Virus record (IMG/VR): IMGVR_UViG_3300025736_000046
Span: 1-46,564 of that record
Length of the DNA stretch: 46,564 nucleotides
Strand: one strand, 5' to 3'
Source: a virus
The position numbers and the translations under genes were made by a program. The first letter of the stretch is position 1. Each line of letters begins with the position of its first letter. A model generated the notes under the pieces. That model worked only from the letters and a program-made list of their open reading frames with translations, made no database searches and was not told the DNA's origin. Below, in pieces: positions 10,776-42,385 of this stretch.

Positions 10776-12424
10776 CCTTCAGAATTCATAACGTAACCAC
10801 TGAGATTTTAGGTTTAAAGCCTGAACAAGCCTTGGCTATTAATAGTTTTCTTCGTTACAGGCTCTCTCACTTTAGATTTGTTCCTTCTTATCGTAAGGGA
10901 CATTGGGATGGTTTTATTAAATTATTCAAGAAGAACAGATTTCCTACCGGATTATTTCGAAAGACATTAAACTTCGTGCAGTCCTGGAACTTGCCTATTC
11001 AGATAGTAGTAGAAGATTTAAGAGAACCTCTACCTGTGTCAGCTGAAGACCCCATCACTTTTACTCTCCGGGATTATCAACAGGAGGCTTTAGAGGCTAT
11101 ATCTGAAACGTGGAGAGGCGTTATTAGACTCCCAACAGGCTCAGGTAAAACTATTGTAATAGCCTCTATCTTGGGAAAGTTGGGAGTACCTACGTTAGTT
11201 TTAACTCATCGAGTTATTCTTTTGAACTATTTAAGTCAAACTATTTCTAAAGCCTTAGGTAAACCTGTGGGGATCCTGGGAGATGGTAGAATGGATTTAC
11301 AACCTATTACCATAGGAAGTATCCAGACAGTAGTTAAAAGATTAGAAAGTGCTAAAGCGGGATTTGGAAAAGAAGCTATGGAAGTTCAAAAATATGTTAA
11401 AGATGATATTAGATGTGTAATTACGGATGAGACGCATCATGTCAGTAGTTCCAATTCAATACAATATATATTGAACAGGTGTATGAACGCCACTTCACGG
11501 ATAGGACTTTCGGCTACTCCTTACAGAGATTCTGAGATAGATTTATGGTTAGAAGGGTGTATAGGACCTCAGCGATATTATTTATCGGCCTCTAATCTCA
11601 TTAAAAGAGGATACTTATCTAAACCTTATATTTTCTTCGTAGATTATGGAAAGACTACTTTAGATATTACGTGTCCTAAATGTAATGAAGTTGCCACAGA
11701 GGCTTTAATAGAATCTAAGTGCCCTAAATGTGGACATAAAGTTCTTTCAGATAGGTTTCTTTATGAGGAAAGGGCAGAGAAAGGGGAATTCGATTTTCTT
11801 TGTCCTAAGTGTACCAATACATGGTTAAGTTCTTCGCGTAAAGCGGCTAAGCAGACCTATATTATTTGTTCTAAAGACAAGTGTAATCATAGATGGACTC
11901 CTTTCCAAAACGCTAAGAGGAGAGGTATTACAGATAATCCTCTTCGAAATTTGGTTATAACTCAGATAGCTATTAGACGAATTCAAAAACGTCGATCCGT
12001 TTTAATTTATTTAGAACAGATAAAGCATGGACAGCTTCTCGAGGAAGCTATTGGAAAAGTTGTAGGCGTAGATCAGGTAAAGTTCCTATGGTCTGACATT
12101 GACGATAAAGAAGGGTGGTTAAAGAAGTTAGAGCGCAAAGAGATACTTTGTATTATTTCAACAACTGTTCTAGGAGAAGGCGTAGACATTCCATCATTAG
12201 ATACTCTTATGAATGTGAAAGCAGGAGAGAGTCCTATTGAGTTGATCCAGATTGTAGGGAGAGTTTTAAGACGAACTCCTAAGAAGCACAAGGTTCTAGT
12301 ATTAGATTTTGACGATAAATTCCAATTTTTTAAAAGAAAGGCGAAAGCCCGTAAAGAGATTCTTAAATTAGAACCCGAGTTTGTTGTAAGGTCTTATAAG
12401 TATGTGCCTAAGGAGATAAAATGA
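10763..12424 (+). CDS. SF2 DNA helicase (UvsW/RAD25-like) with inserted zinc ribbons
   Basis: A 553-residue DExH helicase. LRDYQQEALEAI is the Q-motif-like lead-in. RLPTGSGKT (about 122-130) is the Walker A motif, ITDETHHV (about 219) the DExH box, LSATPYR (about 249) motif III, and QIVGRVLRR near residue 500 motif VI. It should unwind or remodel branched DNA in replication or recombination, like T4 UvsW. Between the two helicase domains, about residues 304-380, are CPKC, CPKC, CPKC and a CSKDKC pair, two apparent zinc ribbons that are not in textbook UvsW. They may bind DNA or partner proteins. ATGA overlap joins it to the next gene. Confidence 0.88.
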   Translation: MDVLTFRIHNVTTEILGLKPEQALAINSFLRYRLSHFRFVPSYRKGHWDGFIKLFKKNRFPTGLFRKTLNFVQSWNLPIQIVVEDLREPLPVSAEDPITFTLRDYQQEALEAISETWRGVIRLPTGSGKTIVIASILGKLGVPTLVLTHRVILLNYLSQTISKALGKPVGILGDGRMDLQPITIGSIQTVVKRLESAKAGFGKEAMEVQKYVKDDIRCVITDETHHVSSSNSIQYILNRCMNATSRIGLSATPYRDSEIDLWLEGCIGPQRYYLSASNLIKRGYLSKPYIFFVDYGKTTLDITCPKCNEVATEALIESKCPKCGHKVLSDRFLYEERAEKGEFDFLCPKCTNTWLSSSRKAAKQTYIICSKDKCNHRWTPFQNAKRRGITDNPLRNLVITQIAIRRIQKRRSVLIYLEQIKHGQLLEEAIGKVVGVDQVKFLWSDIDDKEGWLKKLERKEILCIISTTVLGEGVDIPSLDTLMNVKAGESPIELIQIVGRVLRRTPKKHKVLVLDFDDKFQFFKRKAKARKEILKLEPEFVVRSYKYVPKEIK

Positions 12425-14361
12425 ATCATTTATATAAGAAAGGTAACGACGCGTACCATTACTTAACGAATCCGGACGATAAGAAACGTTTTGAATTAGC
12501 TTTAAAGCTTATACCTAAACCTTTTAAGTACGATTCAATTTTAGATGTGGGCTGTGGGGAAGGATGGTTTACTAATCTTGTTTCTCAGAAGTATCAGGAT
12601 TCACCTATTGCAGGTATAGACGCTTCTACCGAAGCTATAATTCGAGCTTTAAGTTGGCAGAGTACGCGTATTAAATTTAGTATAGAAGATTTCTTGAAAG
12701 AGAAGTACGCTAAGCATGATTTAATATTAGCTTTAGGTTTCTTTGGAGGATTTAAGTGTTCAGAATACGCCACTGTTATAAATGCTATTATAAATCAATC
12801 TAGTTCTGATGCTGACTTAGTTATAGGTCATAGGTTTCAAGACTCAGCTCAAGTAGAGATTTTATTCGGTATGTTAAAAGGAGCAGGTTGGATTCCTTTA
12901 CAAGGTTTTACGTTTGATTATAGAGGGATGAAGTCTTTTGTAAGCGCTTATACTAAGAAACCTTTAGTTAGTATTATTACGACTACGTATAATAGAAAGG
13001 ATCTTGTAAAGAGAGCTATTGCGAGTACTCGAAATTCTCGGATGCAATCGTTTGAACATTTAATAGTAGATGACGGATCTGATAAAGAGACAGAAGCTAT
13101 TTTAAAAGAGCTTGAGAAAGAAGATAGTAGAATTCATATCATTAGAAGAGACGAAAATAGTGTAGCAGAATCTAAGAGATCAGGTAAACCTATAGCTCCA
13201 GCGAACGATGCTTTACGCATAGCTAAAGGAAAGTACATAGTTCATTTAGGTGATGATGACAAGTTCCGTAAAGGGCGTTTGGATGAACCTATTCGAATTT
13301 TAGAACAGAACGATGATATCTCCGCTGTATACAATGATTCTATTATTCACGCCGAAACCGTTTATCGAGATCGCTCCACGGAGTTCGATTACTCGAAGTT
13401 ACTGAAGGGAAACTTTATGGGTAGTTGCGAAGTTACGTATCGTCTATCCGAGGCTTTAAAAGTTGGAGGTTGGAAGTGTCCAAAGATTAGAAATGAAAAT
13501 GCGAAATATGATTCAGAGCTTGTAGACATCTGTAACAAGAATGGCGTAGAACCTTCCTCCGATGATTGGGATTTCTGGAAGAGACTATTCAAAGATAAGC
13601 ATGTAATTCATTACCCCGTAATCTTATCCGAAATTTTTTCTCGAAAGTCTCCGTACTATCGAAACGAAAGTAAATTTGAAACGGACTTAGATTCGATTTC
13701 AGAAGCAAACCTTTATAAATTTCAAGACGATCCTCTAAAGAGAATTTACCTTCTCTATCACAGAGTTGAAGAAGAGGCTTCATCGTATACCGTATCTATA
13801 CCAAACTTTCGTAAGCAAATGGAACTTGCTTCTAAGAATCCTAATATGTACATTACCTTTGACGGAGGTTACTCGAATTTTCTTGAAACGATTCTTCCTA
13901 TATTACGTGAATTTAATCTTACATCTCGAACGATTTTATTCGTCTGCACCGATCACGTCGGAAAAGATAACTCGTTTGATAAAGGTCAACCTCTTAGAAC
14001 TTTCGCAACGTGGGAAGATTTGCGAGAAATATCGAAGGAGATTGAGATAGGTTCACATTCTGTCACGCATACGAAGTTAACGGAACTCTCCTACGATGAC
14101 GTCCTCGCCGAAGTCTCTTTAAGTAAGTCGAAGATCGAAACGAAACTAGATATGAAGATACGAGACTTTGCGTATCCGAACGGTGCCTTTAATACTACAA
14201 CTATAAAGCTTCTAGAAGACAATGGCTATACTAGAGGATTCACAACTCTTAGAAATTTAAAGTCAGATAGTCTTCATACTCTCTGTAGATGGAGTATAGG
14301 CGATGACGATTTTAACGTATTGGAAAAACTTGTGAAGGAGTCTGAATGCCGAAATGTGTAA
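12421..14361 (+). CDS. Methyltransferase - GT2 glycosyltransferase - polysaccharide deacetylase fusion
   Basis: A 646-residue three-domain protein. Residues 1-165 are a class I SAM methyltransferase (ILDVGCGEGWFTNL is the SAM loop, GIDAS follows). Residues about 175-430 are a GT2 glycosyltransferase (VSIITTTYNRKDLVKRA, IVDDGSD, LGDDDKF as the DXD-type site). Residues about 485-646 are a NodB-like deacetylase (MYITFDGGYSNF, GSHSVTHTKL, DFAYPNGAFN). In the usual TFDDG motif the second Asp binds metal; here it is Gly, so activity may be altered. Together the domains could add a sugar, remove its acetyl group and methylate the product. The target is unknown: phage DNA, virion protein or host glycan. 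The neighbours are replication genes. Confidence 0.82.
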   Translation: MNHLYKKGNDAYHYLTNPDDKKRFELALKLIPKPFKYDSILDVGCGEGWFTNLVSQKYQDSPIAGIDASTEAIIRALSWQSTRIKFSIEDFLKEKYAKHDLILALGFFGGFKCSEYATVINAIINQSSSDADLVIGHRFQDSAQVEILFGMLKGAGWIPLQGFTFDYRGMKSFVSAYTKKPLVSIITTTYNRKDLVKRAIASTRNSRMQSFEHLIVDDGSDKETEAILKELEKEDSRIHIIRRDENSVAESKRSGKPIAPANDALRIAKGKYIVHLGDDDKFRKGRLDEPIRILEQNDDISAVYNDSIIHAETVYRDRSTEFDYSKLLKGNFMGSCEVTYRLSEALKVGGWKCPKIRNENAKYDSELVDICNKNGVEPSSDDWDFWKRLFKDKHVIHYPVILSEIFSRKSPYYRNESKFETDLDSISEANLYKFQDDPLKRIYLLYHRVEEEASSYTVSIPNFRKQMELASKNPNMYITFDGGYSNFLETILPILREFNLTSRTILFVCTDHVGKDNSFDKGQPLRTFATWEDLREISKEIEIGSHSVTHTKLTELSYDDVLAEVSLSKSKIETKLDMKIRDFAYPNGAFNTTTIKLLEDNGYTRGFTTLRNLKSDSLHTLCRWSIGDDDFNVLEKLVKESECRNV

Positions 14362-17090: not shown

Positions 17091-17726
17091 ATGGAAAAAC
17101 AAACACCGTCAGAGAATACAGAGCCTATCAAAGATTTGGTTAAGGCAGAGAAAATTAAGAAACTTGAAAAGATAGCGAAGGAGATGTTGATAATACTTGG
17201 AGAAGATGTGACGAGAGAGGGTTTGATTAAGACACCTACTAGGATGGCGAAATCGTGGCTAGATATTACAAATGGTTATACGGCCGATATAGATAAGATA
17301 GCCAGCGTAGCTCATTTTACGACTGAGGTTAAGGAGATGATTGTAGTGAAAGATATACCTTTTTATTCAGCGTGTGAGCATCATTTCGTACCATTTTTTG
17401 GGGTAGTTCATGTTGGATATATACCTGAAAAGAATAAAGTTATAGGTCTTTCAAAGATACCGAGATTAGTAGAAGCTTTTTCAAGAAGGCTTCAGATACA
17501 AGAAAGAATGACTTGTCAAATAGCACAAACGTTACAGGATTATTTAAAACCTTTAGGAGTAGGAGTTATAGTAGAGGGTCGCCACCTGTGCATGGAAATG
17601 CGCGGAGTGGAAAAAACGGGCCCAGTCACGACTACTAGTGAGATGCTTGGCGTGTTTGCAACACGACCGCATGCCAAAGCTGAGTTCCTGGATCATATTG
17701 CTAGAGCGAGGAATAGAAATGTGTAA
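17091..17726 (+). CDS. folE: GTP cyclohydrolase I
   Basis: A 211-residue enzyme that opens GTP to 7,8-dihydroneopterin triphosphate, the first step to both folate and 7-deazaguanines. The zinc and active-site residues are intact: SACEHHFVPFFG (Cys-Glu-His-His), GLSKIPRLVEAFSRR, and RHLCMEMRGVEKTG with the second zinc Cys. Length and order fit FolE type I. It has its own promoter box at 17039 and a GAAGGAG site. With QueD and QueE about 22 kb downstream and a DpdA-like protein, it most likely feeds 7-deazaguanine synthesis for DNA modification. The C-terminal codons (ARNRNV) lie in a 20-base direct repeat. Confidence 0.95.
   Translation: MEKQTPSENTEPIKDLVKAEKIKKLEKIAKEMLIILGEDVTREGLIKTPTRMAKSWLDITNGYTADIDKIASVAHFTTEVKEMIVVKDIPFYSACEHHFVPFFGVVHVGYIPEKNKVIGLSKIPRLVEAFSRRLQIQERMTCQIAQTLQDYLKPLGVGVIVEGRHLCMEMRGVEKTGPVTTTSEMLGVFATRPHAKAEFLDHIARARNRNV
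17703..17722 (+). repeat. 20-bp direct repeat, copy 1
   Basis: AGAGCGAGGAATAGAAATGT, identical to 17842-17861, 139 bases apart. It contains the end of folE plus the ribosome site and start codon of the next small frame. Confidence 0.95.
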
Positions 17727-25170: not shown

Positions 25171-26145
25171 ATGAAGCTCACGATTCAAGACTTCCAAGCA
25201 CATAAAAATTCGTTACTCGACTTATCTAAAAAGTTCATAGTAATAGTAGGACCTACAGATACAGGTAAGTCGAGTATTGTTAGGGCATTCAGATGGATTT
25301 TTTATGATTTTTATGGAGGTTCGAGTTTTATAAGAAAAGGTCAAAAGAAAGCCTCGGTAAGTGTTACACTTGAAGGTAAGAATGTAACGAGAACTAAAGG
25401 TAAGGGATCTAATTCTTATCAAATAGATTCGAACGATTATACAAGCGTAGGTAGAAGTATTCCTGAGGAAGTTTGTACCTTTATGAATGTTAAACCTATT
25501 AGAGATGGATCATCCGAGATTCTTTTACATGTCACGGATCAACATGATTCCCCTTTTCTTATTTTTGAATCTGAACCTAAGGCGGCTAAACTTTTAAACA
25601 GGCTAACAGGTGTGCATATTGTAGACGAAGCTATTCGCGAAGAGTTAAAGATCAAGAAAGAGGTTAACGCTTCTTTAAATAGAGTTGTAACTAATCTGTC
25701 TGAAGTTGATGCAAGGTTAAACAGTTTCAATTATTTGGAAGGAGCCAAAGAAAAATTTAAAAATGTAGAGAGTTCTATCGCAGAGAGGCGTTACTTTTTT
25801 AATCGTCTCGTGTTACTTCAAAACTTATCACAACAACTCCTAGCTTTAACTGAACTTAAGTCTTCGCTAGAACCTATAATTGAACCTTCTTTAAGTAGAA
25901 TAGAAATAGTAGAATCTAAGATGAAAGAAAGGGATGATCTTCTTCTAAGGTTAATTTCTTTCAAAGATATCTATACGAGATACTTGTCTGAAAAAGTTTC
26001 ACAAGAGAGTACAAAGCGAAATATATGCGAGTTTGGTACAACTTTAAAATATTCTGAGACTAAACTTTCCGATCATTTAGTTGAAGCAGGTGTATGTCCT
26101 ACGTGTGGACAGTCTACGAAGCTTTCCAAGGTTACGTCTAAATGA
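25171..26145 (+). CDS. SbcC/Rad50 N-terminal half ending at the zinc hook
   Basis: A 324-residue protein. I chose ATG 25171 (MKLTIQDFQAHKNS), the normal Rad50/SbcC beginning, over upstream starts in the SSB gene. Walker A is GPTDTGKSS at residues 28-36. A long helical region follows (IREELKIKKEVNASLNRVVT, then FKNVESSIAERRYFF), and near the end is CPTCGQ, the zinc-hook CxxC. Rad50 normally continues through a second coil to an ABC domain with Walker B. Here the protein stops just after the hook, and the missing half is encoded at 30163. Works with the SbcD nuclease at 29029. The stop overlaps nrdG (ATGA). Confidence 0.85.
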   Translation: MKLTIQDFQAHKNSLLDLSKKFIVIVGPTDTGKSSIVRAFRWIFYDFYGGSSFIRKGQKKASVSVTLEGKNVTRTKGKGSNSYQIDSNDYTSVGRSIPEEVCTFMNVKPIRDGSSEILLHVTDQHDSPFLIFESEPKAAKLLNRLTGVHIVDEAIREELKIKKEVNASLNRVVTNLSEVDARLNSFNYLEGAKEKFKNVESSIAERRYFFNRLVLLQNLSQQLLALTELKSSLEPIIEPSLSRIEIVESKMKERDDLLLRLISFKDIYTRYLSEKVSQESTKRNICEFGTTLKYSETKLSDHLVEAGVCPTCGQSTKLSKVTSK

Positions 26146-26846
26146 AAATAGGCGGTTTCATTCCTACATCTTTTATAGACTTTCCTCAAAAGTTAAGCTG
26201 TACGATTTTTCTTCAGGGCTGTAATCTTCGTTGCTCCTATTGTTATAATCCTTCTTTAATACCTAAGAAGATTTCTAAAGACCCTTTTCATCAAACTATT
26301 GGTGAGGCAGGTTTCTTTCGCTTCTTGGTAAAGAGGCGTTACCTATTAGAAGGTGTAACGATTACGGGGGGAGAGCCTACTATTCAAAAAGGGTTACCTG
26401 AATTCATTTTGAAAATTAAGGGTATGGGTTATAAGGTAAAGTTAGACAGCAACGGAACGAATCCCTCTATGCTACGACATCTTTTAAAGAAGTCTATGTT
26501 AGATTACATAGCGATGGACATAAAAGCGCCTTCCGAGGGTTATACCTCTGTAACTAACTCTGTTGTAGATGTAGCTGTAATAAAAGAGAGCGTTAATCTA
26601 ATACGAAGTTCTAATATTCCGTATGAGTTTAGAACTGTAGCTATTCCAACGTTAACTTATTCTGATTTAATTAGAACAGCTAAGATGGTTCAAGGGTCTT
26701 CCTTGTACGTTTTACAGACTTTTAAAAAAGATGCGGAGATAGTAGATGAGACTTTAAAGAACGTTAATCATCTCGAAGTAGACTTAGAAAAAACTCGAAA
26801 CACGATTCTTTTGCAACAAATAGTACGTCGTTGTATTATTCGATAA
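26142..26846 (+). CDS. nrdG: Anaerobic ribonucleotide reductase activase (radical SAM)
   Basis: A 234-residue radical-SAM enzyme that puts the glycyl radical on NrdD. CNLRCSYCYN holds the three Cys for the 4Fe-4S cluster, TITGGEPTIQKG the SAM-binding GGE. FIPTSFIDFPQKLSCTIFLQ at the N terminus is typical of the NrdG2-like type. The adjacent nrdD fixes the role. Such activases are destroyed by oxygen, so replication is expected under anoxic conditions. It starts inside the stop of the Rad50 N-terminal half. Confidence 0.92.
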   Translation: MKIGGFIPTSFIDFPQKLSCTIFLQGCNLRCSYCYNPSLIPKKISKDPFHQTIGEAGFFRFLVKRRYLLEGVTITGGEPTIQKGLPEFILKIKGMGYKVKLDSNGTNPSMLRHLLKKSMLDYIAMDIKAPSEGYTSVTNSVVDVAVIKESVNLIRSSNIPYEFRTVAIPTLTYSDLIRTAKMVQGSSLYVLQTFKKDAEIVDETLKNVNHLEVDLEKTRNTILLQQIVRRCIIR

Positions 26847-33186: not shown

Positions 33187-33482
33187 AGATTGATAAATTA
33201 AGGTTAGCTAAAGCTAAGAGAACTTTAAAGGAATTGAAGGAAGTAAAAGTTACACGACAACGTAGATTTGACGAGGCCGGACTTTATTTCAGAATGGCTC
33301 AACGTAAGTTAGATGACGTTAATCATAAGATGGAAGCACTCCAAACTTATGTAGAGAGTTTAAAGAGAGGGGTAAAATTAAATGAAACCAAAATTACATA
33401 TTTGTCTTTGCGGGGCGCAAGGTACAGGAAAGTCCACATTACAAAAGGTCATAGTAAAGAAATTACAAGAGATGTTACCTGA
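33183..33482 (+). CDS. Coiled-coil hypothetical protein
   Basis: GTG start at 33183 overlapping the previous stop (GTGA). About 65 residues of basic coiled coil (LRLAKAKRTLKELKEVKVTR, then AQRKLDDVNHKMEALQTYVE) are followed by about 34 residues that overlap the start of the kinase-dUTPase gene in another frame. The long overlap suggests that the last part is an extension after loss of an earlier stop. Function unknown. Confidence 0.5.
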   Translation: MKIDKLRLAKAKRTLKELKEVKVTRQRRFDEAGLYFRMAQRKLDDVNHKMEALQTYVESLKRGVKLNETKITYLSLRGARYRKVHITKGHSKEITRDVT

Positions 33483-34410
33483 TGAGAATATATGTTCTTC
33501 TTTATCTTTACCTAGGATGCAAATAGAGAATCATAAGCTAGGAAAGAATCCGTTGAATCAGCTTCTGTTAGAGCTTTTAACCGACCATCAGACTAGTACT
33601 TATCATGATAAAATTCTTGTAACTAGTCGATCTGTAATTGATAGATACGCCAATAGCGTCGCCGCAGGTTTATTTGATACACCTTTAGGTGCGGAGCTTG
33701 AGCCTTACTATAAAGAATGTAGAATACCTGAACAATTGAAAATATATGATTTTATTATATACGTTCCTATACGATTTGGAGTAGTTGATGATGGAGTTCG
33801 AAATACGGACGAGAAAAATAGATGCCTTATAGATGAGATCACGTACAATACTTTGCAAAAATACTCTAAAGATTATATTGTAGCAGATCAATGTAGTCCT
33901 AAATATACAGATCAACTGGTAGATGAAATAGTTTGCAAGTTCAGAAAGAAATCTTTCCAGGATTCTAAGAACAATATTACCGTAAAATATAAGTTGACAG
34001 ATCTTGATGCAAAGGCTCCGATAATGAAGTATTTAGAAGATAAAGAAGGTTCGACAGCTTGCTTTGATTTATTTGCCACTAAAGATCAGATTCTTTCACC
34101 TCAAAGTACTACGATTATACATTGCGGTATTCAATTTGAAGTATCTCCCTTTGTAGAATTACTAGTTCGAGGTCGTAGCGGAATGGCTCGAAGGGGAGTA
34201 ACAACGCATATGGGTACTGTTGACAGTAATTACAGGGGAGATTGCGGACCTATTATTCATAATCAAACACACGGCCACATAGAAGTTAGAAAAGGAGAAC
34301 GTGTTTGTCAAGTCGCAGTCAGAAGATTTCCCAGAGTTTTATTGAAAGAAGTGAAAGAGCTTTCAGAAACATCTAGAGGAGATAAAGGTTTCGGTTCGAC
34401 AGGATTATAG
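33382..34410 (+). CDS. P-loop kinase fused to dUTPase
   Basis: A 342-residue fusion. Residues 1-190 are a nucleotide-kinase-like or AAA_28 P-loop domain: LCGAQGTGKSTLQ is Walker A, LVTSRSVIDRYANSV the lid/substrate part, YDFIIYVPI the following strand. Residues about 195-342 are a trimeric dUTPase with all five motifs: ACFDLFA, GRSGMARRGV, GTVDSNYRGD, GERVCQ and RGDKGFGSTG. It removes dUTP to give dUMP and probably phosphorylates a nucleotide, so it balances the dTTP pool and keeps uracil out of DNA. This fits the UDG-like domain on the polymerase. The kinase substrate is not shown by the sequence. Confidence 0.87.
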   Translation: MKPKLHICLCGAQGTGKSTLQKVIVKKLQEMLPDENICSSLSLPRMQIENHKLGKNPLNQLLLELLTDHQTSTYHDKILVTSRSVIDRYANSVAAGLFDTPLGAELEPYYKECRIPEQLKIYDFIIYVPIRFGVVDDGVRNTDEKNRCLIDEITYNTLQKYSKDYIVADQCSPKYTDQLVDEIVCKFRKKSFQDSKNNITVKYKLTDLDAKAPIMKYLEDKEGSTACFDLFATKDQILSPQSTTIIHCGIQFEVSPFVELLVRGRSGMARRGVTTHMGTVDSNYRGDCGPIIHNQTHGHIEVRKGERVCQVAVRRFPRVLLKEVKELSETSRGDKGFGSTGL

Positions 34411-34432: not shown

Positions 34433-34951
34433 ATGTTTTTAACTTTTTTAGGTAAAAAAGATTCGGATAAGCAAGATTTTATACAACGTTTAAGTAAAGA
34501 GTGGTTAAAGATCGCACGTAAACCTAATACATATATGATAACAGGTAAGTCTATAGATTCTGTATCGAAGATTAGAGATTCATTACAACCTTTTGAATTA
34601 CAGATGGCTATAGAATCTCACGTAGCCGAACTTGAAAGACACAGAAGAGGGCGCATCACTCTTACAACGACGTCTATTATCAGTAGGTGTGCTTACGCCA
34701 GAGTTAATAAATTAGGATTAGACGCTCTGTACGGTCTTCTTTTAGCCAAATCAATTCCAACTTATGATCTTATTTTTTACAGGCCATTAATGACATTTTT
34801 AAAATATTCTGAGTATGATGCGGCTGTGGACCTTGAAATTAGAAATATTTTAAAGACTTTTAAAGTTACACCCCATATTTTATTAGGTTACGATGATTTT
34901 AGTTTGACCCAGGTAATGGAGACGCTTAAAGTAAGGAGAGGAATATGTTAA
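34433..34951 (+). CDS. Degenerate paralogue of the upstream P-loop kinase
   Basis: A 172-residue protein with the same outline as the kinase domain just before it: FLGKKDSDKQDFIQRL stands at the Walker A place but lacks GxGKS/T, TTTSIISRCAYARVNKLG matches TSRSVIDRYANS, and YDLIFYRPL matches YDFIIYVPI. It likely arose by tandem duplication and has lost ATP binding. It may act as a regulatory or structural partner of the kinase-dUTPase. Its stop overlaps the DpdA-like gene start. Confidence 0.65.
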   Translation: MFLTFLGKKDSDKQDFIQRLSKEWLKIARKPNTYMITGKSIDSVSKIRDSLQPFELQMAIESHVAELERHRRGRITLTTTSIISRCAYARVNKLGLDALYGLLLAKSIPTYDLIFYRPLMTFLKYSEYDAAVDLEIRNILKTFKVTPHILLGYDDFSLTQVMETLKVRRGIC

Positions 34952-35739
34952 AGATTGGAATTATAACGCCTATAAAGTATTTGAAAGAATATTCATGCAG
35001 AGGTCATTTTTATTTAGCTTTAGCTCATCTTATAAAGCCAAATTCTAAAGTTGAACGTTTTTTTAAAACACAGAAAGATAAGGATATTATTTTAGACAAC
35101 GGTGCTTTTGAATTAGGATATTCCTTACCTATGAAAGATCTTCTAGTTATTCAAGGTAGGATTAAAGCTAATATGATAGTACTACCTGACGCCCCTAAAG
35201 ATGTAAAAAAGACTCAACAGTTAATGTCTTCAAGTACATTAGAGGCTTTAGAGTTTAATGAACTTCTTGTAGATAATGGAAAGGAACCTCTTCCTCTTAA
35301 CTTTATGGGAGTTCCTCAAGGTAAGACTAGAGATGATTGGTGGAAAAGTTTTAAACAAATGTATGATAACATACGTGTTTCTACGCTTGGCATAAGTTTT
35401 CAGAACGTAGTTTTTGATACGGAGCGTTTAGAATCATCTAGAGAAGATATCCTGAATGAAATGGTTCAAAAAGGTTATACGAAGAAGAACATACATTTAT
35501 TGGGAGGAGGTTACAATCTTTACAGAGATGTCGTAGCAGGCAGATCTATTCCTTGTGTAAAGTCTTTAGATACGTGTCTTCCTTTTCTTTTTGGTTCCAA
35601 CTGCGTGATACTTGATTCTAAGACTATTAGAAAGAAAGGCGTTAAGCTGAATCATGATGTTCCTTCTTTAAATGAATTACAGAAAGATTTTACAAGTAAA
35701 AATATTTCTACACTTTTAAAATGGGCTAATTTAGATTAA
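34945..35739 (+). CDS. dpdA: DpdA-like 7-deazaguanine DNA transglycosylase (TGT family)
   Basis: A 264-residue protein related to tRNA-guanine transglycosylase. The marks are LDNGAFELGYSLP (Asp51), VLPDAPKD (Asp82), NFMGVPQGKTRDDW and LLGGGYNLY with a conserved Asp region near LDTCLPF. DpdA proteins replace guanine in DNA by a 7-deazaguanine base, which protects phage DNA from restriction. It is shorter than bacterial TGT and lacks its C-terminal zinc site, as in phage DpdA. FolE, QueE and QueD are in the same genome. RBS AGGAGAGG before ATG 34945, overlapping the upstream stop. Confidence 0.8.
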   Translation: MLKIGIITPIKYLKEYSCRGHFYLALAHLIKPNSKVERFFKTQKDKDIILDNGAFELGYSLPMKDLLVIQGRIKANMIVLPDAPKDVKKTQQLMSSSTLEALEFNELLVDNGKEPLPLNFMGVPQGKTRDDWWKSFKQMYDNIRVSTLGISFQNVVFDTERLESSREDILNEMVQKGYTKKNIHLLGGGYNLYRDVVAGRSIPCVKSLDTCLPFLFGSNCVILDSKTIRKKGVKLNHDVPSLNELQKDFTSKNISTLLKWANLD

Positions 35740-35747
35740 AAGGTTAT

Positions 35748-36326
35748 ATGAATAATTATACGCTAATAAAATCTGAAACAGGTGAATTAAAAATGACAGA
35801 GTCTACTTATGAGAGTACTCAATGGTATGTTTTGTGGGGACCTTTAGGTTTAAAAACTCAGATTCTTTCTATCAGGAGACTTTTAAAAAGACTTAATCCT
35901 GATTGGGGTTTGTGGTTTCCTACGTACACACTTCAAAATAGTACACGGGCATTGTTTCCATGCTATACTTTTATTAAATGTAGGTGGGATCACGGTTTAG
36001 AAGATCTTTTAAAAGAACATATACCTATCCCAGTTCAATTTTTATCCGACGGCGACAATAAATATCCAAGTATTATTCAAGAGGAGGCTTTAGAAAGCAC
36101 TTTAGAAACGATAGGGGAAATAGAAAAAGGTGATATAGTGTTGGATATTGATTTTAAGGTTGGTGATAAGGTTTTTATTTCTAAGAAAAGTTATGGTATG
36201 GTTTCACATGGTATTGTTTTAAATATTAGACGGAACGGGAAGGTTGAAGTAAAATGTTTTATTTTTAATAGAGAGGTGGTATTAGTAGTGGAGCGAAAGC
36301 ATGTTCGTAAGTATGAGAATTTATAA
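35748..36326 (+). CDS. NusG/RfaH-like transcription factor
   Basis: A 192-residue protein. Residues about 25-125 look like the NGN domain: QWYVLWGPLGLKTQILSIRR, GLWFPTYTL, then RALFPCYTFIKCRWD, the run that in NusG contacts RNA polymerase. Residues about 135-190 form a KOW domain (FKVGDKVFISKKSYGMVSHG, EVKCFIFNREVVLVVERKHV). It should bind elongating RNA polymerase and change pausing or termination, perhaps for late phage operons. It lies between dpdA and a glycosyltransferase gene. Start uncertain: ATG 35748 with AAAGG, or ATG 35793. Confidence 0.72.
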   Translation: MNNYTLIKSETGELKMTESTYESTQWYVLWGPLGLKTQILSIRRLLKRLNPDWGLWFPTYTLQNSTRALFPCYTFIKCRWDHGLEDLLKEHIPIPVQFLSDGDNKYPSIIQEEALESTLETIGEIEKGDIVLDIDFKVGDKVFISKKSYGMVSHGIVLNIRRNGKVEVKCFIFNREVVLVVERKHVRKYENL

Positions 36327-36342
36327 AAATTGAGGAGAACAC

Positions 36343-37260
36343 ATGATAGATATTGCTACCGTTTGTTATAGAGATTTAGAAAAGACTCAAAGGTTTATTA
36401 GAAGTATCATAGAGAAAACTACAGAACCTTTCAATTTAGTTATTGTAGATAATAACAGTGAGGCAGATGTACTAAATCTGTTAGATACGCTACGAACTAG
36501 TAAGATGCCTCCTCTCTTAAAGTCTTTAACGATAATTCGAAATGAAGTGAATCTTGGAATAGGTATTGGAATGAATCAAGCTATGAGAGAATGCAAATCT
36601 GATTATATCATTAGATGTGATTCAGATATAGAAATAGTTACTTCAGGATGGACAGAGTTATTGACTGAGACGGCTAAGAAGAGTTCGATGATAGGAGCCG
36701 TAGCTACTAAGAGTTGCGGAGGTAACTTAAGATCTCGAGATGGAATTATCGAAACGAATATCATCTTATCTAACTGTATGCTCATTCCACGTACTGCTAT
36801 AAGAAAAATATGTGCGACGGTTAAAAACAGGAGATCCGAAATTCTTGAAAGACTAATTCCGTTTTTAAATCAACCTGAGAAGTTTGAAGGTCATCATAGA
36901 TACCTGGAAGCTATCAAGCATTGGCTTTTAAAACCTGATGGTTGTTGGGATGCAGGCTGGCCTTTATATGGATTCGATGACTTTGATTATTCTTATACCC
37001 TTTTATGGTCCGATTTAATTCTTACGAAGGATGATAGAGTTGACGTTATTCATCATGACAGTAGTCTAAGACCGGATTGGAAAGAGACTCGTCATAAAGC
37101 TGTATCCGAAGGAGCCAGGTACTTTCGTACTAAGTGGGAGATAATAGAAGACCACTGGGACGATCCTGAATCTCCTGGAGGTAAAGGTTGGAAAGATTTG
37201 TACCATTTTCTTCCTAGAATTCGAAAGTATAACAGTGGAGTTCTGGAGTCTATAAAATGA
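36343..37260 (+). CDS. GT2-family glycosyltransferase
   Basis: A 305-residue GT-A enzyme behind TGAGGAG. It has MIDIATVCYRDLEKTQRFIR, LVIVDNNSEADV, VNLGIGIGMNQAM and RCDSDIEI as the DXD metal and sugar-nucleotide site. The second half contains GCWDAGWPLYGFDDFDYSYT, likely the acceptor/base region. It transfers a sugar from a nucleotide donor to an unknown acceptor, perhaps a modified base or virion protein. Its ATGA overlap with the PIG-L deacetylase gene argues that they act together. Confidence 0.82.
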   Translation: MIDIATVCYRDLEKTQRFIRSIIEKTTEPFNLVIVDNNSEADVLNLLDTLRTSKMPPLLKSLTIIRNEVNLGIGIGMNQAMRECKSDYIIRCDSDIEIVTSGWTELLTETAKKSSMIGAVATKSCGGNLRSRDGIIETNIILSNCMLIPRTAIRKICATVKNRRSEILERLIPFLNQPEKFEGHHRYLEAIKHWLLKPDGCWDAGWPLYGFDDFDYSYTLLWSDLILTKDDRVDVIHHDSSLRPDWKETRHKAVSEGARYFRTKWEIIEDHWDDPESPGGKGWKDLYHFLPRIRKYNSGVLESIK

Positions 37261-37859
37261 AACATAAGAATCTTATAATTGATAAACCTGTTTTGATTGT
37301 AGTAGCTCACCCTGAGGATGAGTTATTGTTTGCAGGAGGACTTCTCGCACAAGGTAGAACATCTGAATGGCATATTCTTTCTCTTACAGGGGGTAACGTT
37401 GGAGACCCTAGAAGTGATGAGTTTTCCAATGTTTGTAATATTCTAGGTGTTCAACATTCTTTCGGACATCAGAAAGATGTTTGGTTTAAGGCTCTTTCAA
37501 GAAGTGAATGTCATCAGCATATAACTAGTATTATTTCACGTTTTCCTATAATTGTTACTCATAATCCTTCAGGAGAGTATGGTCATAAGCATCATATTCA
37601 AACTAGCTATTATGTTACTGAGATTGTAAATAAGATAAACACTTTGTATAGAGCCACGGACGGTGCTAGAGAATTACATCGCCTCCTTTATTTCGGAGAT
37701 CATGTAGAGACGAATAGAATGTTAAAGTTAGAAGAGTCTGACAAAGCGGCTATAAAAAATTTACGTAAACACTATAGAAAGTCGAACCCGTCCTTAAAGA
37801 AAACTTTTGGCGACGTTACAAGCCGGGAAAGATACTTAGAGGTTGAAGATTGGGTGTAA
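37257..37859 (+). CDS. PIG-L/LmbE-family N-acetyl deacetylase
   Basis: A 200-residue zinc deacetylase. AHPEDELLFAGG is the first metal motif, in which the usual AHPDDE has Glu for the first Asp, and HNPSGEYGHKHH carries the last His ligands. Family members remove acetyl from N-acetylglucosamine attached to an acceptor. Located between two glycosyltransferases, it may deacetylate the sugar they attach, giving a free amine. The change at the first Asp, often the catalytic base, needs testing for activity. The stop is 23 bases before the next start. Confidence 0.8.
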   Translation: MKHKNLIIDKPVLIVVAHPEDELLFAGGLLAQGRTSEWHILSLTGGNVGDPRSDEFSNVCNILGVQHSFGHQKDVWFKALSRSECHQHITSIISRFPIIVTHNPSGEYGHKHHIQTSYYVTEIVNKINTLYRATDGARELHRLLYFGDHVETNRMLKLEESDKAAIKNLRKHYRKSNPSLKKTFGDVTSRERYLEVEDWV

Positions 37860-37882
37860 CGAATATAGTAAGGAGAATAAAA

Positions 37883-39073
37883 ATGAGTAAGACGGTGAGC
37901 GTATGTTTGTGTTGTCACAATCGACCTGAGTTTTTAGAACCGACGCTGAAGTGTCTAGAAGAAACTTTAGAAGGTTCGTGTGAAATTATTATAGCAAACG
38001 ATAAGACGACCGATCCTAAGACGAATAAACTTATTACAGATTTCGTATTAAGAATGAAAACTAAATTTTTCGTAAAGTCGTATGTAACGAATTTCGGTAA
38101 TCATGCTAAAGCTCAAAACTTTACGATGGAGAAAGCTACGGGAGACGTACTCGTTCACATTGAAGACGATATCTTAGTAGGCCGTACGAACGGTAAAGAC
38201 GTCGTCTTAGCTAAAGGCTGGAATCAAATCTTTTCTAAATACTTTGAGACGTTTCCGGAAGTCGGTCAGATACTTCCAGCAGGAAGCGGACGAGGAGAAT
38301 GGATACCTCGAGAAGGTTATAACGAATTCATGTGGGGTCTTGGAGCTCTTTGGGCTATCACGAGAGACGTCTACGAGAAGTTAAATACTGAAGCGGGAGT
38401 TTGGGATGAACGCTTATGTCATCAAATCGAACCAGATTGCAATCTCAGAGTTCGTATGTTAGGTTATAGACTGATAGAGTTAAAAGAGTTTGGTATGATT
38501 CATCTTGGAGAAGGAGATCAAGCTGACTCGTTCGAACGTCAAGCTCAAATCATTATAGGTGTTCATAATATGTTGAAGAAGTGGAATAATCGATTTGTTG
38601 GGCATTGGGACTACGATAGTCTTTTCAGTATGAGCTGGGATGACTTTCCGCCTAACGTTAATTTCAGAAGACAGTTAGCGGCTTGGTTCTCAGCCGAAGC
38701 TCATAAGTTAGAAGATAGATATAAAGGCTTAGGAGTTCTTAAAGATGATACGAACTATAGTGGAGCCGTACCCGAGTCGATTCGAAAGAAGCACGACGAC
38801 TATCTTAGTTGTAGACTAAACCGTAAACCTTTCACATTTCAATTTCCGGCTCACTGGGGTAAGTTCGAACTCATCAATAGAATTAGACCTCAAGGCAGAG
38901 AACGTGAAGATGAGTTGATTACATTGATGAAGAATAATTTCGTATTCAAAGGAGTCGATAGACTTCTTAAACAATTACAAGAACTGTCGGAAAGAGGTAA
39001 CTTCAACAAGTCCGAGGAAGATCTTCTACAGATGATAGTAAAAAGGCCGAAATGGAATTGGTATAGTAAGTAA
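37883..39073 (+). CDS. GT2-family glycosyltransferase
   Basis: A 396-residue enzyme. AAGGAGA before ATG 37883 sets the start. It has SVCLCCHNRPEFLEPTLKCL, IIIANDKTTD, ATGDVLVHIEDDILVG with the acidic metal site, and GLGALWAITRDVYEK further on, the GT-A plan with an extended C-terminal region of about 150 residues. Its codons are richer in CG than in the flanking genes. Probably acts with the upstream glycosyltransferase and deacetylase. The acceptor is unknown. Confidence 0.78.
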   Translation: MSKTVSVCLCCHNRPEFLEPTLKCLEETLEGSCEIIIANDKTTDPKTNKLITDFVLRMKTKFFVKSYVTNFGNHAKAQNFTMEKATGDVLVHIEDDILVGRTNGKDVVLAKGWNQIFSKYFETFPEVGQILPAGSGRGEWIPREGYNEFMWGLGALWAITRDVYEKLNTEAGVWDERLCHQIEPDCNLRVRMLGYRLIELKEFGMIHLGEGDQADSFERQAQIIIGVHNMLKKWNNRFVGHWDYDSLFSMSWDDFPPNVNFRRQLAAWFSAEAHKLEDRYKGLGVLKDDTNYSGAVPESIRKKHDDYLSCRLNRKPFTFQFPAHWGKFELINRIRPQGREREDELITLMKNNFVFKGVDRLLKQLQELSERGNFNKSEEDLLQMIVKRPKWNWYSK

Positions 39074-39086
39074 TTCTAGTATAAAG
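39072..39086 (+). promoter_or_regulatory. Promoter-like box AATTCTAGTATAAAG
   Basis: TTCTAGTATAA core in the short gap between the glycosyltransferase stop and the queE start, 18 bases before ATG 39104. It would make queE-queD separately expressed. Confidence 0.5.
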
Positions 39087-39103
39087 AAGTAAGGAGAAAT
39101 TTA

Positions 39104-39853
39104 ATGAGAGACCTTTCGGAGTTTAAACTTCCTGTCAGTGAGATATATTACTGCCTGCAAGGAGAAGGACCTTTCTTAGGAATACCTTCCATACTAGTTA
39201 GAACTGAAGGATGTAATCTTCGTTGTAAGTTTTGTGATACGAAGTACGCCGCGTATGGAATGAAGAAGAGAGTAAAACCGATGTCATCCTTCGGTATTAT
39301 GAATTCTATCCGAACTCTTTCGTCAGAAAACATTACGAATAATATAATTCTGACGGGAGGGGAACCTCTTGTACACAAAGATTCAGAACAGTTTATACGA
39401 AGGCTTCTTTCAGAAGGATATCACGTTACGGTTGAGACTAACGGAACCGTACCTCTATCGAAATCCTTTTTAAGGATACTTCCGAGATTTAAAGGTAAAA
39501 TATACTTCGCAGTATCTCCGAAACTAAAGTCTTCAGGATTTCGAAGCGGACGAAATTCTATTCGACATAATACATTACGAATAAACTTTAAAGCTCTCGA
39601 AACATTTTCATCTAACGGTGAGTTTAGTTTCTTTAAATTTGTCGTTAAAAGTAAGAAAGATACACCGGAAATTTTTACGTTACAGTGTAAGCTTGGAATT
39701 CCGAATTCAGATATGTTTCTAATGCCCGAAGGTCAAACGAGAAGAGAGATACAAAAGACTCGAAAGATAACGTACGAGCTATGTCTCGAGTTCGGACTTA
39801 GATACTCTCCTAGACTTCAAGTAGACATTTATGGAACGAAGAGGAAAGTGTAG
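39104..39853 (+). CDS. queE: 7-carboxy-7-deazaguanine synthase
   Basis: A 249-residue radical-SAM enzyme converting 6-carboxy-tetrahydropterin to 7-carboxy-7-deazaguanine (CDG). The signature runs LQGEGPFLGIPSILVRTEGC then NLRCKFCDT, with the cluster Cys residues, followed by LTGGEPLVHK, VETNGTVP, AVSPKLKSSG and FLMPEGQT. All match QueE. It takes the QueD product, encoded two genes downstream. TAAGGAG precedes ATG. The TAG stop overlaps a GTG start (TAGTG). Confidence 0.93.
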   Translation: MRDLSEFKLPVSEIYYCLQGEGPFLGIPSILVRTEGCNLRCKFCDTKYAAYGMKKRVKPMSSFGIMNSIRTLSSENITNNIILTGGEPLVHKDSEQFIRRLLSEGYHVTVETNGTVPLSKSFLRILPRFKGKIYFAVSPKLKSSGFRSGRNSIRHNTLRINFKALETFSSNGEFSFFKFVVKSKKDTPEIFTLQCKLGIPNSDMFLMPEGQTRREIQKTRKITYELCLEFGLRYSPRLQVDIYGTKRKV

Positions 39854-40128
39854 TGTATAAAAAGAGAAAGAGTATTCAAGGTTCGACCCATAAAGTTACT
39901 TTCAAAGAGTTAATTTCTTTCAAAGTTAAGTATATGAAGAAGGATCGTGTATATGTCATTAGTCATCCTGGAGCTCTCATCTGGGGATATAACTTTACGG
40001 AAAGAAAAGCCTTTAGAGATTTAGCTGATTGTATTCAATTAGAATACAATTATTATCATCGTATGAAGTTAGAAGGTGGTATCAAGTATTATAAGAAGAT
40101 AATCAAAAGTATTCGGAGGATTAAATGA
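39853..40128 (+). CDS. Hypothetical protein between queE and queD (91 aa)
   Basis: GTG start inside the queE stop, and its own stop overlaps the queD start, so it is translated as part of the pathway operon. The product is basic (KVKYMKKDRVYVISHPGAL, then RMKLEGGIKYYKKIIKSIRR) with an alpha/beta look and no recognised motif. The tight coupling makes it a candidate factor for deazaguanine synthesis or base tailoring. That is inference only. Confidence 0.6.
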   Translation: MYKKRKSIQGSTHKVTFKELISFKVKYMKKDRVYVISHPGALIWGYNFTERKAFRDLADCIQLEYNYYHRMKLEGGIKYYKKIIKSIRRIK

Positions 40129-40577
40129 GCGAAGTTAAGTTTTCAGAAATGACTGTTGAGAAGTCGTTTGAGTTTGATGCGGCACATCGTTTATTGAACT
40201 ATGAGGGCGCGTGTAAGAATTTACACGGACACCGATGGAAGGTAGGGGTAGAAGTATCGAAGCCTTCTAATTATATAACCGATAACGGATTCCTATTTGA
40301 TTTTCACGATTTTAAGTTCTTTGGAGAATGGTTAAAGGAGAAGTTCGATCACGCTACGATTATAAATAAGAAAGATATCCATTTATGTGCGTTTGCGATA
40401 GCAAATAAGCAGAAGCAGTACGTGATGGAAGGTAATCCGACAGTGGAGAATCTGTCACTCGTAATGTTGTCGAGATTACGGAACTCTATATTTAGCGTTT
40501 GTCGCATTAAACTAACGATTTGGGAAACACCTTCTTCTAAGTTAACTCTTACGAGTGAGGCTCCTACGAATGTCTGA
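40125..40577 (+). CDS. queD: 6-carboxy-5,6,7,8-tetrahydropterin synthase
   Basis: A 150-residue enzyme of the 6-pyruvoyl-tetrahydropterin synthase family. FDAAHRLLNYEGACKNLHGH shows the zinc His residues and the catalytic Cys, and NPTVENLSLVML the usual Glu. LFDFHDFKFF and LKEKFDHATI are further family landmarks. It makes the QueE substrate from the FolE product. CGGAGG before ATG 40125. It overlaps its neighbours on both sides, in one operon with queE. Confidence 0.93.
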   Translation: MSEVKFSEMTVEKSFEFDAAHRLLNYEGACKNLHGHRWKVGVEVSKPSNYITDNGFLFDFHDFKFFGEWLKEKFDHATIINKKDIHLCAFAIANKQKQYVMEGNPTVENLSLVMLSRLRNSIFSVCRIKLTIWETPSSKLTLTSEAPTNV

Positions 40578-40839
40578 TAAAGTTCTTGCAAGATTAACGT
40601 GTCCTAAATGTAAAACATTTTGGGCCACAGCTAACGTTACATTTGAAGCACCTCTCCAGAAGAAGGATGTCATAGTAAATCCTGAGTGGCGATATAAAGT
40701 TAAGACTGAAGCTTCTGAACTTCAGTGCCCTAAATGTGATCATGTGTTGGATCGACAGGAACTGTTTACTTGCATTGCCAATAGCCTAAATGAAATAGAG
40801 AAAGCTGTTTCAGGTTTTAAGATTAGAGGAAAGCAATAG
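40570..40839 (+). CDS. Zinc-ribbon protein (89 aa)
   Basis: ATG 40570 lies within the last codons of queD and is preferred to an upstream in-frame start. CPKCKTFWA at residues 11-19 and CPKCDHVLD at about 53-61 form a four-Cys zinc ribbon around a beta hairpin. The C terminus is helical. Small ribbons of this kind bind nucleic acids or RNA polymerase. No specific family is recognised. Confidence 0.65.
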   Translation: MSDKVLARLTCPKCKTFWATANVTFEAPLQKKDVIVNPEWRYKVKTEASELQCPKCDHVLDRQELFTCIANSLNEIEKAVSGFKIRGKQ

Positions 40840-40863
40840 ATTAAGACGTTAAGAGAGGTAAAA

Positions 40864-41256
40864 GTGTTAAATCATAAACGAACAGATAAGAAATGCAGGC
40901 TTTGTTCTAATATTGTTTTGAACGTAGATCCTAAAGCTAAAGAGGTGTATTGTTGGGAGTGCGTATCTAATGGAACGTATGTAAATTTTAAGATGAGTGG
41001 CGTTGTAAAAGCTTCAATTGATTTATTTGCAGAAGAAGATTTAGTAAATAAACCTACAAGGAGGAGTACTATGAGTGTTATGAAGGATAAAGACGGTAAG
41101 TGTAAGGGTAATTATATAGGAGAATTTTTAAAGAAGGGTATGTCTCTTCCCGAGATAGTAAAAGAAGTATTAAAAATTTTCCCGGATGAAAATCCTGATA
41201 AGCTTTACAGATACGTATGCGTACGTCGCAGTAAATTAAAAAAATTAAATAAATAA
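40864..41256 (+). CDS. Zinc-ribbon protein (130 aa)
   Basis: GTG start after GAGAGG. Residues about 11-35 hold CRLCSNIVLNVDP...YCWECVS, a zinc ribbon. The C-terminal half has a helical segment (EFLKKGMSLPEIVKEVLKIF) that resembles a helix-turn-helix, ending in basic residues. Could be a regulator or DNA-binding accessory. The gene precedes the metallopeptidase-like and sigma-4-like genes. Confidence 0.6.
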   Translation: MLNHKRTDKKCRLCSNIVLNVDPKAKEVYCWECVSNGTYVNFKMSGVVKASIDLFAEEDLVNKPTRRSTMSVMKDKDGKCKGNYIGEFLKKGMSLPEIVKEVLKIFPDENPDKLYRYVCVRRSKLKKLNK

Positions 41257-41266
41257 AGGGGTCCAT

Positions 41267-41764
41267 ATGCCAGAGTTAACTTGGGAGCTGTCTTCCGAGA
41301 TTCATGACAGAGTAAAAGTTCTTTTAGAAGGTTTAAAAAATAAGGAGGATTGTAAACGCTTTGCTTACTTAGAAGATTTTGAGACTAGAAAGTTGGCGTG
41401 TGTTTTAACGAACCAACCCCCTCACGCTTCTTCGTATTTTTCGTTCTCTAACGAAGGAGCTCCGGAGACTCTTAAGAAGAGGCAAGTAGCGTCTATGAAA
41501 ATTGTAAGTAGACCTGTTTCTCTTTTAACACCTTACAGGTATGTTTTAGTTATTTGTGAACCTCTTTGGGAACCTTTAACACCTGAGCAGAAGGATCTCG
41601 TTCTTCTCCGTCATTTAATATCTATTGACATGACTCACGAGTTAACTCATCCCGCAGAGGACGTTGATGCTACAGGATGTTTACTTAAACCTGATCTTTC
41701 TGATTTTCAAGGCTTTAGGGAAGTGGCGGGGGAATTATTTTTACCTGTGAATCTTAGGGCTTGA
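41267..41764 (+). CDS. Phage metallopeptidase-like protein, active site altered
   Basis: A 165-residue protein that recalls the putative phage metallopeptidase family in layout: PYRYVLVICEPLWEPLTPEQKDLVLLRH and a later KPDLSDFQGFREVAGE. In that family the RH segment normally reads HExxH and the last motif has His-Asp; here they read HLISI and PD. A separate HELTH follows nine residues later and would itself fit HExxH, so zinc binding could be kept at a shifted place or lost. AAGGGG before ATG 41267. Function unclear. Confidence 0.5.
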   Translation: MPELTWELSSEIHDRVKVLLEGLKNKEDCKRFAYLEDFETRKLACVLTNQPPHASSYFSFSNEGAPETLKKRQVASMKIVSRPVSLLTPYRYVLVICEPLWEPLTPEQKDLVLLRHLISIDMTHELTHPAEDVDATGCLLKPDLSDFQGFREVAGELFLPVNLRA

Positions 41765-41786
41765 TATTGTGAGGAGCTAATAACTA

Positions 41787-42023
41787 ATGTCTACTTCTCG
41801 TGATGCTCTTTACGTAGTGTGGAATTTAGATCAGGATAAAGCTATTTTAGATGAGAGTATCGTCATACAGGGCTTTGGAGTCAAACCTGGTGCGGTTCTA
41901 ATGCTTTTTGGTTATACGTTACACGAGAAAGCTTTTTACAGGTGTAAAGGGAGATTCCTTAAATTTTTTGGGTACGTTCCCGATTGGGTTCGACGTTTAG
42001 CTATTCAGGCGGCAAGAAGGTGA
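41787..42023 (+). CDS. Hypothetical protein (78 aa)
   Basis: GTGAGGAG precedes ATG 41787. The product is small and hydrophobic in the middle (KPGAVLMLFGYTLHEKAFY) but with no certain membrane helix; the C terminus is basic (WVRRLAIQAARR). No family is recognised. The stop overlaps the GTG start of the next gene. Confidence 0.55.
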   Translation: MSTSRDALYVVWNLDQDKAILDESIVIQGFGVKPGAVLMLFGYTLHEKAFYRCKGRFLKFFGYVPDWVRRLAIQAARR

Positions 42024-42385
42024 TAATTAACTATTTAGGTTTAACTAATTATTGTGGAATTTCTAAAGTTTTAGAGGATGATGAATGTTTAATTAGAACT
42101 TTTATAGAAGTACCTTCTGAAGCAGTTTTTGCAATTCCTGAAAAACCTTTCATGGATTCGTCTAAGCGAGATTCCTTTGAACTTTTGAGGGGTGAAGATC
42201 TTTTTGATACAATTAAAGATACTTTAACTGTTAAACAACTTTTAGTGTTCTCATTATTTTTTCTATATTGCAGAAGTCAGAGCGAAATAGTCAAGATTAT
42301 GGACATTAATCAGGTTACTATACAACAAGCCCTCGTTACATCTATTGCAAAGGTTAGGGCATATTACAGGCGAAGGGGGTTATGA
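42020..42385 (+). CDS. Sigma region-4-like helix-turn-helix protein
   Basis: GTG 42020 overlaps the previous stop (GTGA) and gives 121 residues. Residues about 65-118 (LTVKQLLVFSLFFLYCRSQS, EIVKIMDINQVTIQQALVTS, IAKVRAYYRRRG) match the sigma-70 region 4 plan: a helix, then a helix-turn-helix and a basic end. Region 2 is absent, so it cannot act alone as a sigma factor. It might bind DNA or RNA polymerase together with the sigma-like protein encoded at 3586, or control the packaging genes that follow. Confidence 0.6.
   Translation: MIINYLGLTNYCGISKVLEDDECLIRTFIEVPSEAVFAIPEKPFMDSSKRDSFELLRGEDLFDTIKDTLTVKQLLVFSLFFLYCRSQSEIVKIMDINQVTIQQALVTSIAKVRAYYRRRGL

Follow-up and report, generated by a model that had tools for sequence, protein, structure and literature searches.

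A predicted phage locus for 7-deazaguanine DNA modification and the derived sugar cassette within it

The IMG/VR record IMGVR_UViG_3300025736_000046, a linear fragment of 46,564 bases that was analysed in its entirety and is called the window below, carries a gene for a DpdA-like DNA-guanine transglycosylase (34945..35739) followed by those for a NusG-like transcription factor (35748..36326), a soluble family 2 glycosyltransferase (GT2a, 36343..37260), a PIG-L de-N-acetylase (37257..37859), a second soluble family 2 glycosyltransferase (GT2b, 37850..39073), the radical-SAM 7-carboxy-7-deazaguanine (CDG) synthase QueE (39104..39853), a protein of 91 residues with no family match (39853..40128) and the 6-carboxytetrahydropterin synthase QueD (40125..40577). 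GTP cyclohydrolase I (FolE), the first step to CDG, is encoded apart from these at 17091..17726. An earlier sequence-only reading had named these genes, FolE included, and each of them proved to be an open reading frame (ORF) where it had been placed, with its family confirmed for all but the small gene. The same reading called the genes of the locus co-directional and mostly overlapping: the first holds, whereas overlap is found at 4 of the 7 junctions, at one of them only if GT2b begins with a TTG start. This trait carries little information, since all 66 of the 66 called genes lie on the plus strand, with a coding fraction of 96%, and 41 of the 65 adjacent pairs overlap or are at most 10 bases apart.

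The 264-residue DpdA homologue matches neither Pfam nor NCBIfam and is only 20–30% identical to its relatives, which were recovered by an alignment-based scan of viral contigs and not by a single-protein pattern scan. A tblastn search matched 16 phage records, 4 of which are annotated as encoding a DNA guanine transglycosylase. Across an alignment of 40 sequences, comprising the window and viral contigs, D51-N52, E56, R166, H184, G187 and D209 are invariant; from the motif alignment, we take D51 and D209 to be the base and nucleophile of the tRNA-guanine transglycosylases (TGTs). The family profile further matches the solved DNA-guanine transglycosylase 7ui4 (E 5.7e-4), with the HLLG and S-x-D motifs in alignment, and among the 50 best PDB fold matches listed for the AlphaFold2 model (predicted local distance difference test score, pLDDT, 94.3) all 50 are TGTs. 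Thus, judged by family profile, motifs and predicted fold, the identification as DpdA is sound, and by its family membership the enzyme would be expected to act on DNA. In trees of DpdA and QueE, with their long branches, the window's place is not firm.

The precursor genes are recognized with comparable clarity. FolE matches PF01227 (7e-71) and TIGR00063 (2.5e-67); QueE matches phrog_2076 (1.2e-51), bears the motif CNLRCKFC and has its closest kin within the phage clade at 43% identity, with a single-protein pattern scan of viral contigs recovering no relatives; QueD matches PF01242 (PTPS, 5.4e-26) and bears CKNLHGH. QueE and QueD both fall under the NCBIfam equivalog cut-offs (QueE against TIGR04349 at 1.3e-23, under the curated cut-off), yet both match the phage PHROGs named QueE-like and QueD-like. 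A further gene at 26142-26846 was considered as a second QueE and rejected, being NrdG (TIGR02495 7.3e-57 against about 1e-12 for QueE). The active-site motifs of the FolE/QueD/QueE set are present, as in the phage systems for 7-deazaguanine modification of DNA, which combine FolE, QueD, QueE and QueC with DpdA or DpdA2 in 9g, CAjan, Rosebush and nt-1 (Hutinet 2019, PMC6884629). The window resembles these in having FolE, QueD, QueE and a DpdA homologue with the TGT fold, and differs in that QueC and the amidotransferase are not seen in its partial contig and sugar genes lie inside the region.

Structural genes are represented in the window only by a weak match to terminase (TerL) at 43015, with none other found, so that a large part of the genome probably lies outside this partial contig. 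A DNA-level search among phages gave no match to it. QueC (PF06508) is likewise not found in the window, though it is present in 30 of the 43 records searched (the window and 42 relatives); this absence means little because the window is a fragment and in one relative (G002) QueC lies about 43 kb away from dpdA. Hence, it is not safe to claim that the pathway ends at CDG. That the locus encodes a 7-deazaguanine DNA-modification pathway reaching at least to CDG, as the sequence-only reading had proposed, is well supported at the gene level by family, motif, fold and neighbourhood. In relatives, FolE2 (PF02649, about 1e-75) adjoins dpdA (L137 16776-17618; L112 13048-14016); the window phage instead uses FolE, encoded 17 kb from dpdA, the first enzyme of the pathway having been replaced.

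The surroundings of dpdA can be placed in an evolutionary frame by means of a wider clade obtained through a PolA-alignment scan, the best relatives in which share about 33–36% PolA identity with the window. Three of these (L112, L116 and L117) share the order kinase, dpdA, TOPRIM primase, NusG-like gene and sigma-region-4-like gene, with an occasional small extra gene; a fourth (L111) shows the same order, visible only up to NusG. In L126 (G002) and L137 (G001), it is dpdA, dUTPase, FolE2, nuclease, queD, primase, NusG and sigma-like gene. None of these six records has a GT2. In the window, directly upstream of dpdA is a kinase-like gene (34433..34951), absent from the sequence-only reading, which finds no family in single-sequence scans and matches a profile of the relatives' dpdA-adjacent kinase (1.5e-5). 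It is preceded by a kinase-like and dUTPase fusion (33382..34410; PF00692 2.7e-22, AAA_28 2e-5), the N-terminal half of which resembles the same kinase (1.3e-14). A small kinase-like gene just upstream of dpdA is seen repeatedly, in the window as well as in L003, L004, L006, L112, L116 and L117. The profile of the NusG-like family spans the NusG of the PDB end to end, across the NGN and KOW domains (E 1.2e-16), with the single-sequence match to TIGR00922 (4.6e-5) being below cut-off. The sigma-region-4-like gene (41984..42385) is recognized by the relatives' profile (3e-7) and phrog_1740 (4.9e-5); a second sigma-factor-like gene is present at 3586-4314 (phrog_351 2.1e-8).

Whereas the sigma-like gene directly follows NusG in the relatives, in the window NusG comes right after dpdA and ten genes (36343-41983) part it from the sigma-like gene, the distal boundary of the insertion. 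These are GT2a, PIG-L, GT2b, queE, the small gene, queD and four short genes. Both queE and queD are found elsewhere in L112, L113, L116 and L117, with SbcC/SbcD genes between them; hence, in the window they have moved beside the sugar genes. Since the NusG-like gene neighbours dpdA and the primase in relatives free of sugar genes, it is an ancestral member of that block, and the notion that it is an RfaH/LoaP-like regulator that arrived with the sugar genes was rejected on the same ground. The position of the cassette between NusG and the sigma-like gene is, in contrast, derived.

The cassette itself comprises GT2a (DSD motif; PF00535 3.7e-16), the PIG-L enzyme of carbohydrate esterase family 14 (PF02585 1.3e-15; MshB in the PDB 1.8e-4) and GT2b (EDD motif; PF00535 6.6e-9). 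The zinc motifs of PIG-L are present as AHPEDE and GHKHH, the aspartate of the first being a glutamate when set against the HPxD(E)/HxxH pattern. Both glycosyltransferases match only general GT2-type Pfam models, with their profile matches being to transferases of the polysaccharide and flagellin types. Neither a membrane segment nor a signal peptide is predicted in the window's sugar enzymes. Codon usage does not mark the cassette as foreign (z of 3.1 for GT2b, 2.7 for QueE, 0.5 for GT2a and -0.7 for PIG-L). A protein search of phages with GT2a and GT2b gave no match; GT2b found no relative in scans of bacterial and archaeal genomes or in a single-protein pattern scan of viral contigs, and its AlphaFold2 model is poor (pLDDT 42).

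A second sugar locus, not mentioned in the sequence-only reading, stands between the helicase and PolA genes as a fusion of a methyltransferase, a GT2 and a polysaccharide deacetylase of carbohydrate esterase family 4 (CE4) at 12421..14361 (PF13847 1.4e-7; PF00535 2.2e-19; PF01522 4.4e-21). Its CE4 domain has HSVTH and RDFAYPNG; its first motif reads TFDGG and not TFDDG, making deacetylase activity doubtful. No full-length homologue of the fusion was found, and a single-protein pattern scan of viral contigs returned no relatives. It is possibly a second piece of the sugar pathway. In a relative (G051, L162 7711-10081), a signal-peptide-like CE4 and a membrane GT2 lie downstream of a helicase homologous to that of the window, an order that echoes the helicase-methyltransferase-GT2-CE4 arrangement; phmmer found no dpdA in this 118 kb record. 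The logic of a transferase with a de-N-acetylase thus looks to be present twice in the window and once in G051, where it looks directed at the envelope.

The sequence-only reading inferred that the sugar genes could act on the modified base, and this can be weighed by a condition that the reading named against itself, namely that they keep no company with dpdA elsewhere. Among 85 DpdA-family loci, 66 have FolE, 57 QueE and 28 QueD, with PolA also recurring, and phmmer with the window's sugar genes found none at these loci. By Pfam profile, a single one of the 42 other dpdA records has PIG-L (G035, at a distance of about 28 kb), while about 11 of the 42 have a GT2 above cut-off; this GT2 is at most 6 kb from dpdA in four records only, G014, G026 and the look-alike pair G037/G038, and 12–28 kb off in the others. 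In one of these four (G014, L103 8277-17581), GT4-like, GT2, patatin-like and methyltransferase genes form an array that starts about 1.5 kb downstream of dpdA; apart from the window, no other case was seen of sugar genes arrayed so close to it. A further 19 records reached via PolA or PIG-L include 2 with a GT2, and PIG-L only in the 2 PIG-L records. Conversely, homologues of GT2a and GT2b are paired again in L168 (24% and 29% identity; GT2b homologue 5.6e-16) beside an RmlD-methyltransferase fusion, in a 21 kb record with no detectable dpdA. PIG-L has relatives in G060, G061 (59 kb) and the complete phage PhiXhv-12, where it adjoins a glycosyltransferase; the DpdA profile matched neither G061 nor PhiXhv-12 (G060 was not searched), while three positive controls matched, so that PIG-L/glycosyltransferase sets occur in phages without dpdA. 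The PhiXhv-12 cluster (L169 7472-10706; 120910-124144 of this 228 kb Xanthomonas phage) is annotated as a GlmS-like amidotransferase, a PIG-L deacetylase and a glycosyltransferase, and an annotated leucyl/phenylalanyl-tRNA-protein transferase precedes it by about 4 kb. Several records of the comparison set are fragments. Within the records tested, no linkage of the sugar genes to the base-modifying gene emerged across independent phages: the nearest kin of the window have dpdA but no sugar genes, and no record besides the window has PIG-L in the vicinity of dpdA.

These patterns incline us, by a modest degree, to see two modules side by side, namely deazaguanine modification of DNA and a separately acquired cytoplasmic sugar cassette. 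In the first, FolE, QueD and QueE would convert GTP to CDG, and DpdA would swap guanine in the phage DNA for a 7-deazaguanine, either CDG or 7-cyano-7-deazaguanine (preQ0) or a derivative, the latter two needing QueC from the host or the missing part of the genome; the modified base would block host restriction. In the second, GT2a and GT2b may transfer activated sugars, probably including at least one N-acetylhexosamine, and PIG-L might deacetylate that sugar to a free amino sugar, the acceptor being most likely another phage or host glycan or glycoprotein rather than the deazaguanine base. The NusG-like gene, as part of the ancestral dpdA-NusG-sigma block, probably serves middle or late transcription. 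A parallel may be struck with mycothiol synthesis (MshB), NodC/NodB and poly-N-acetylglucosamine, in which transfer of an N-acetylhexosamine is followed by de-N-acetylation; the window's PIG-L matches MshB, although the substrates differ, identity is low and the CE4 of the fusion is without one motif aspartate.

Several observations weigh against a separation into two modules. The cassette sits between dpdA-NusG and queE-queD, and the relocation of queE and queD beside it could reflect selected co-transcription. Its enzymes are devoid of membrane segments, in contrast to G051, whose GT2 is of envelope type and whose CE4 is secreted, and the fusion at 12421..14361 likewise lies among replication genes. 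No relative above about 36% PolA identity was found in which the company of the cassette with dpdA could be followed.

The most specific form of the two-module reading, and one not exclusive of it, is that the cassette acts to change the surface of host or phage, be it a polysaccharide or a virion glycoprotein, for example in blocking superinfection or covering the virion with amino sugars, with the site in the dpd region being a hot spot for insertion after NusG. This we regard as a tentative possibility. The signal-peptide-like CE4 and membrane GT2 of G051, past a homologous helicase, are typical of envelope polysaccharide, the GT2 pair of L168 is accompanied by an RmlD-type gene and the profiles of GT2a and GT2b point the same way; on the other hand, these two records are one case each, the window's enzymes have neither signal peptide nor membrane segment, and there are no structural neighbours but the weak TerL.

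The proposal of the sequence-only reading that the sugar genes could decorate the modified base is not supported, and the comparison of gene neighbourhoods lowers its likelihood. GT2a and GT2b would here place an N-acetylhexosamine, possibly two sugars, on the 7-deazaguanine inserted by DpdA, and PIG-L would de-acetylate it, yielding phage DNA with an aminoglycosyl-7-deazaguanine that would hinder nucleases by bulk and charge; we consider this unlikely. We know of no description of a glycosylated 7-deazaguanine in DNA, and to our knowledge CDG, preQ0 and related bases have no ordinary sugar-accepting hydroxyl. The known route to a hydroxyl-bearing deazaguanine is through the queuosine-specific QueA, QueG and QueH. 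These have not been found in viruses (PMC6884629), and no enzyme creating an acceptor hydroxyl was found in the window's partial contig. A literature search brought up no report of glycosylated 7-deazaguanine in DNA, with a 2023 paper on further 7-deazaguanines (NAR 51:9214) outside its scope. The derived position of the cassette between dpdA and queE/queD, the solubility of its enzymes amid genes of DNA metabolism and the duplicated transferase and de-N-acetylase logic are consistent with decoration, and precedents exist on either side of it. Animal tRNA bears galactosyl- and mannosyl-queuosine, in which a sugar is placed on a 7-deazaguanine-derived base; however, the enzymes, QTGAL and QTMAN, act on tRNA and not DNA, via cyclopentene hydroxyls (PMC12518689), which CDG/preQ0-type bases lack. 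Phages can glycosylate DNA bases with one or more sugars, and the glucosyl- and arabinosyltransferase systems of the T-even type do so post-replicatively; these systems need hydroxylated cytosine and different glycosyltransferase families (PMC13390438), neither of which was found in the window, and GT2a and GT2b match no DNA-glycosyltransferase Pfam family. Further, the absence of linkage to dpdA in relatives and the occurrence of the GT2 pair and PIG-L in records without it speak against decoration. Among phages with the same DpdA family, Flavobacterium phage immuto, Cellulophaga phage phi13:1/phiST, Weizmannia phage Youna2 and Bacillus phage BSTP12 have dpdA near a kinase-like gene, FolE, QueD and QueE, as in the window, with no GT2 or PIG-L annotated near it.

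Least probable, and in our view quite improbable, is that the sugar genes modify some other DNA base alongside the deazaguanine, e.g., a pyrimidine hydroxylated by enzymes off the contig: the two sugar loci are embedded among replication and nucleotide-metabolism genes, the contig is partial and could be missing a hydroxylase, and the chemically most diverse DNA hypermodifications use a hydroxymethyl pyrimidine handle (PMC12783734), whereas the window has no thymidylate-synthase-type hydroxymethylase (PF00303, the family of dCMP hydroxymethylase), no dioxygenase match was found among the genes scanned (TET/JBP not having been searched as a family) and relatives are without such a set near dpdA.

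Should the supported part alone hold, the 7-deazaguanine locus would contribute a deeply diverged dpdA phage to an anti-restriction system already known, and would show dpdA-NusG-sigma to be a block conserved within a clade of large phages. Were the sugar enzymes to act on the base, queuosine-type and glucosyl-hydroxymethylcytosine-type chemistry would be joined in one DNA base, with a new handle on restriction evasion.

Beyond these loci, the window codes for replication and nucleotide-metabolism functions, namely a helicase, a family A polymerase, UvsX, DnaB, a primase and the anaerobic NrdD/NrdG. The polymerase (PolA, 14346-17033) has an N-terminal domain of the uracil-DNA-glycosylase superfamily (PF03167 5.1e-23) that is kept across the clade. 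An ORF at 24405-25169 without a family match deviates strongly in codon usage (z 11.8), at 45.5% G+C, and is overlapped by a minus-strand ORF of 165 residues at 24654-25151.

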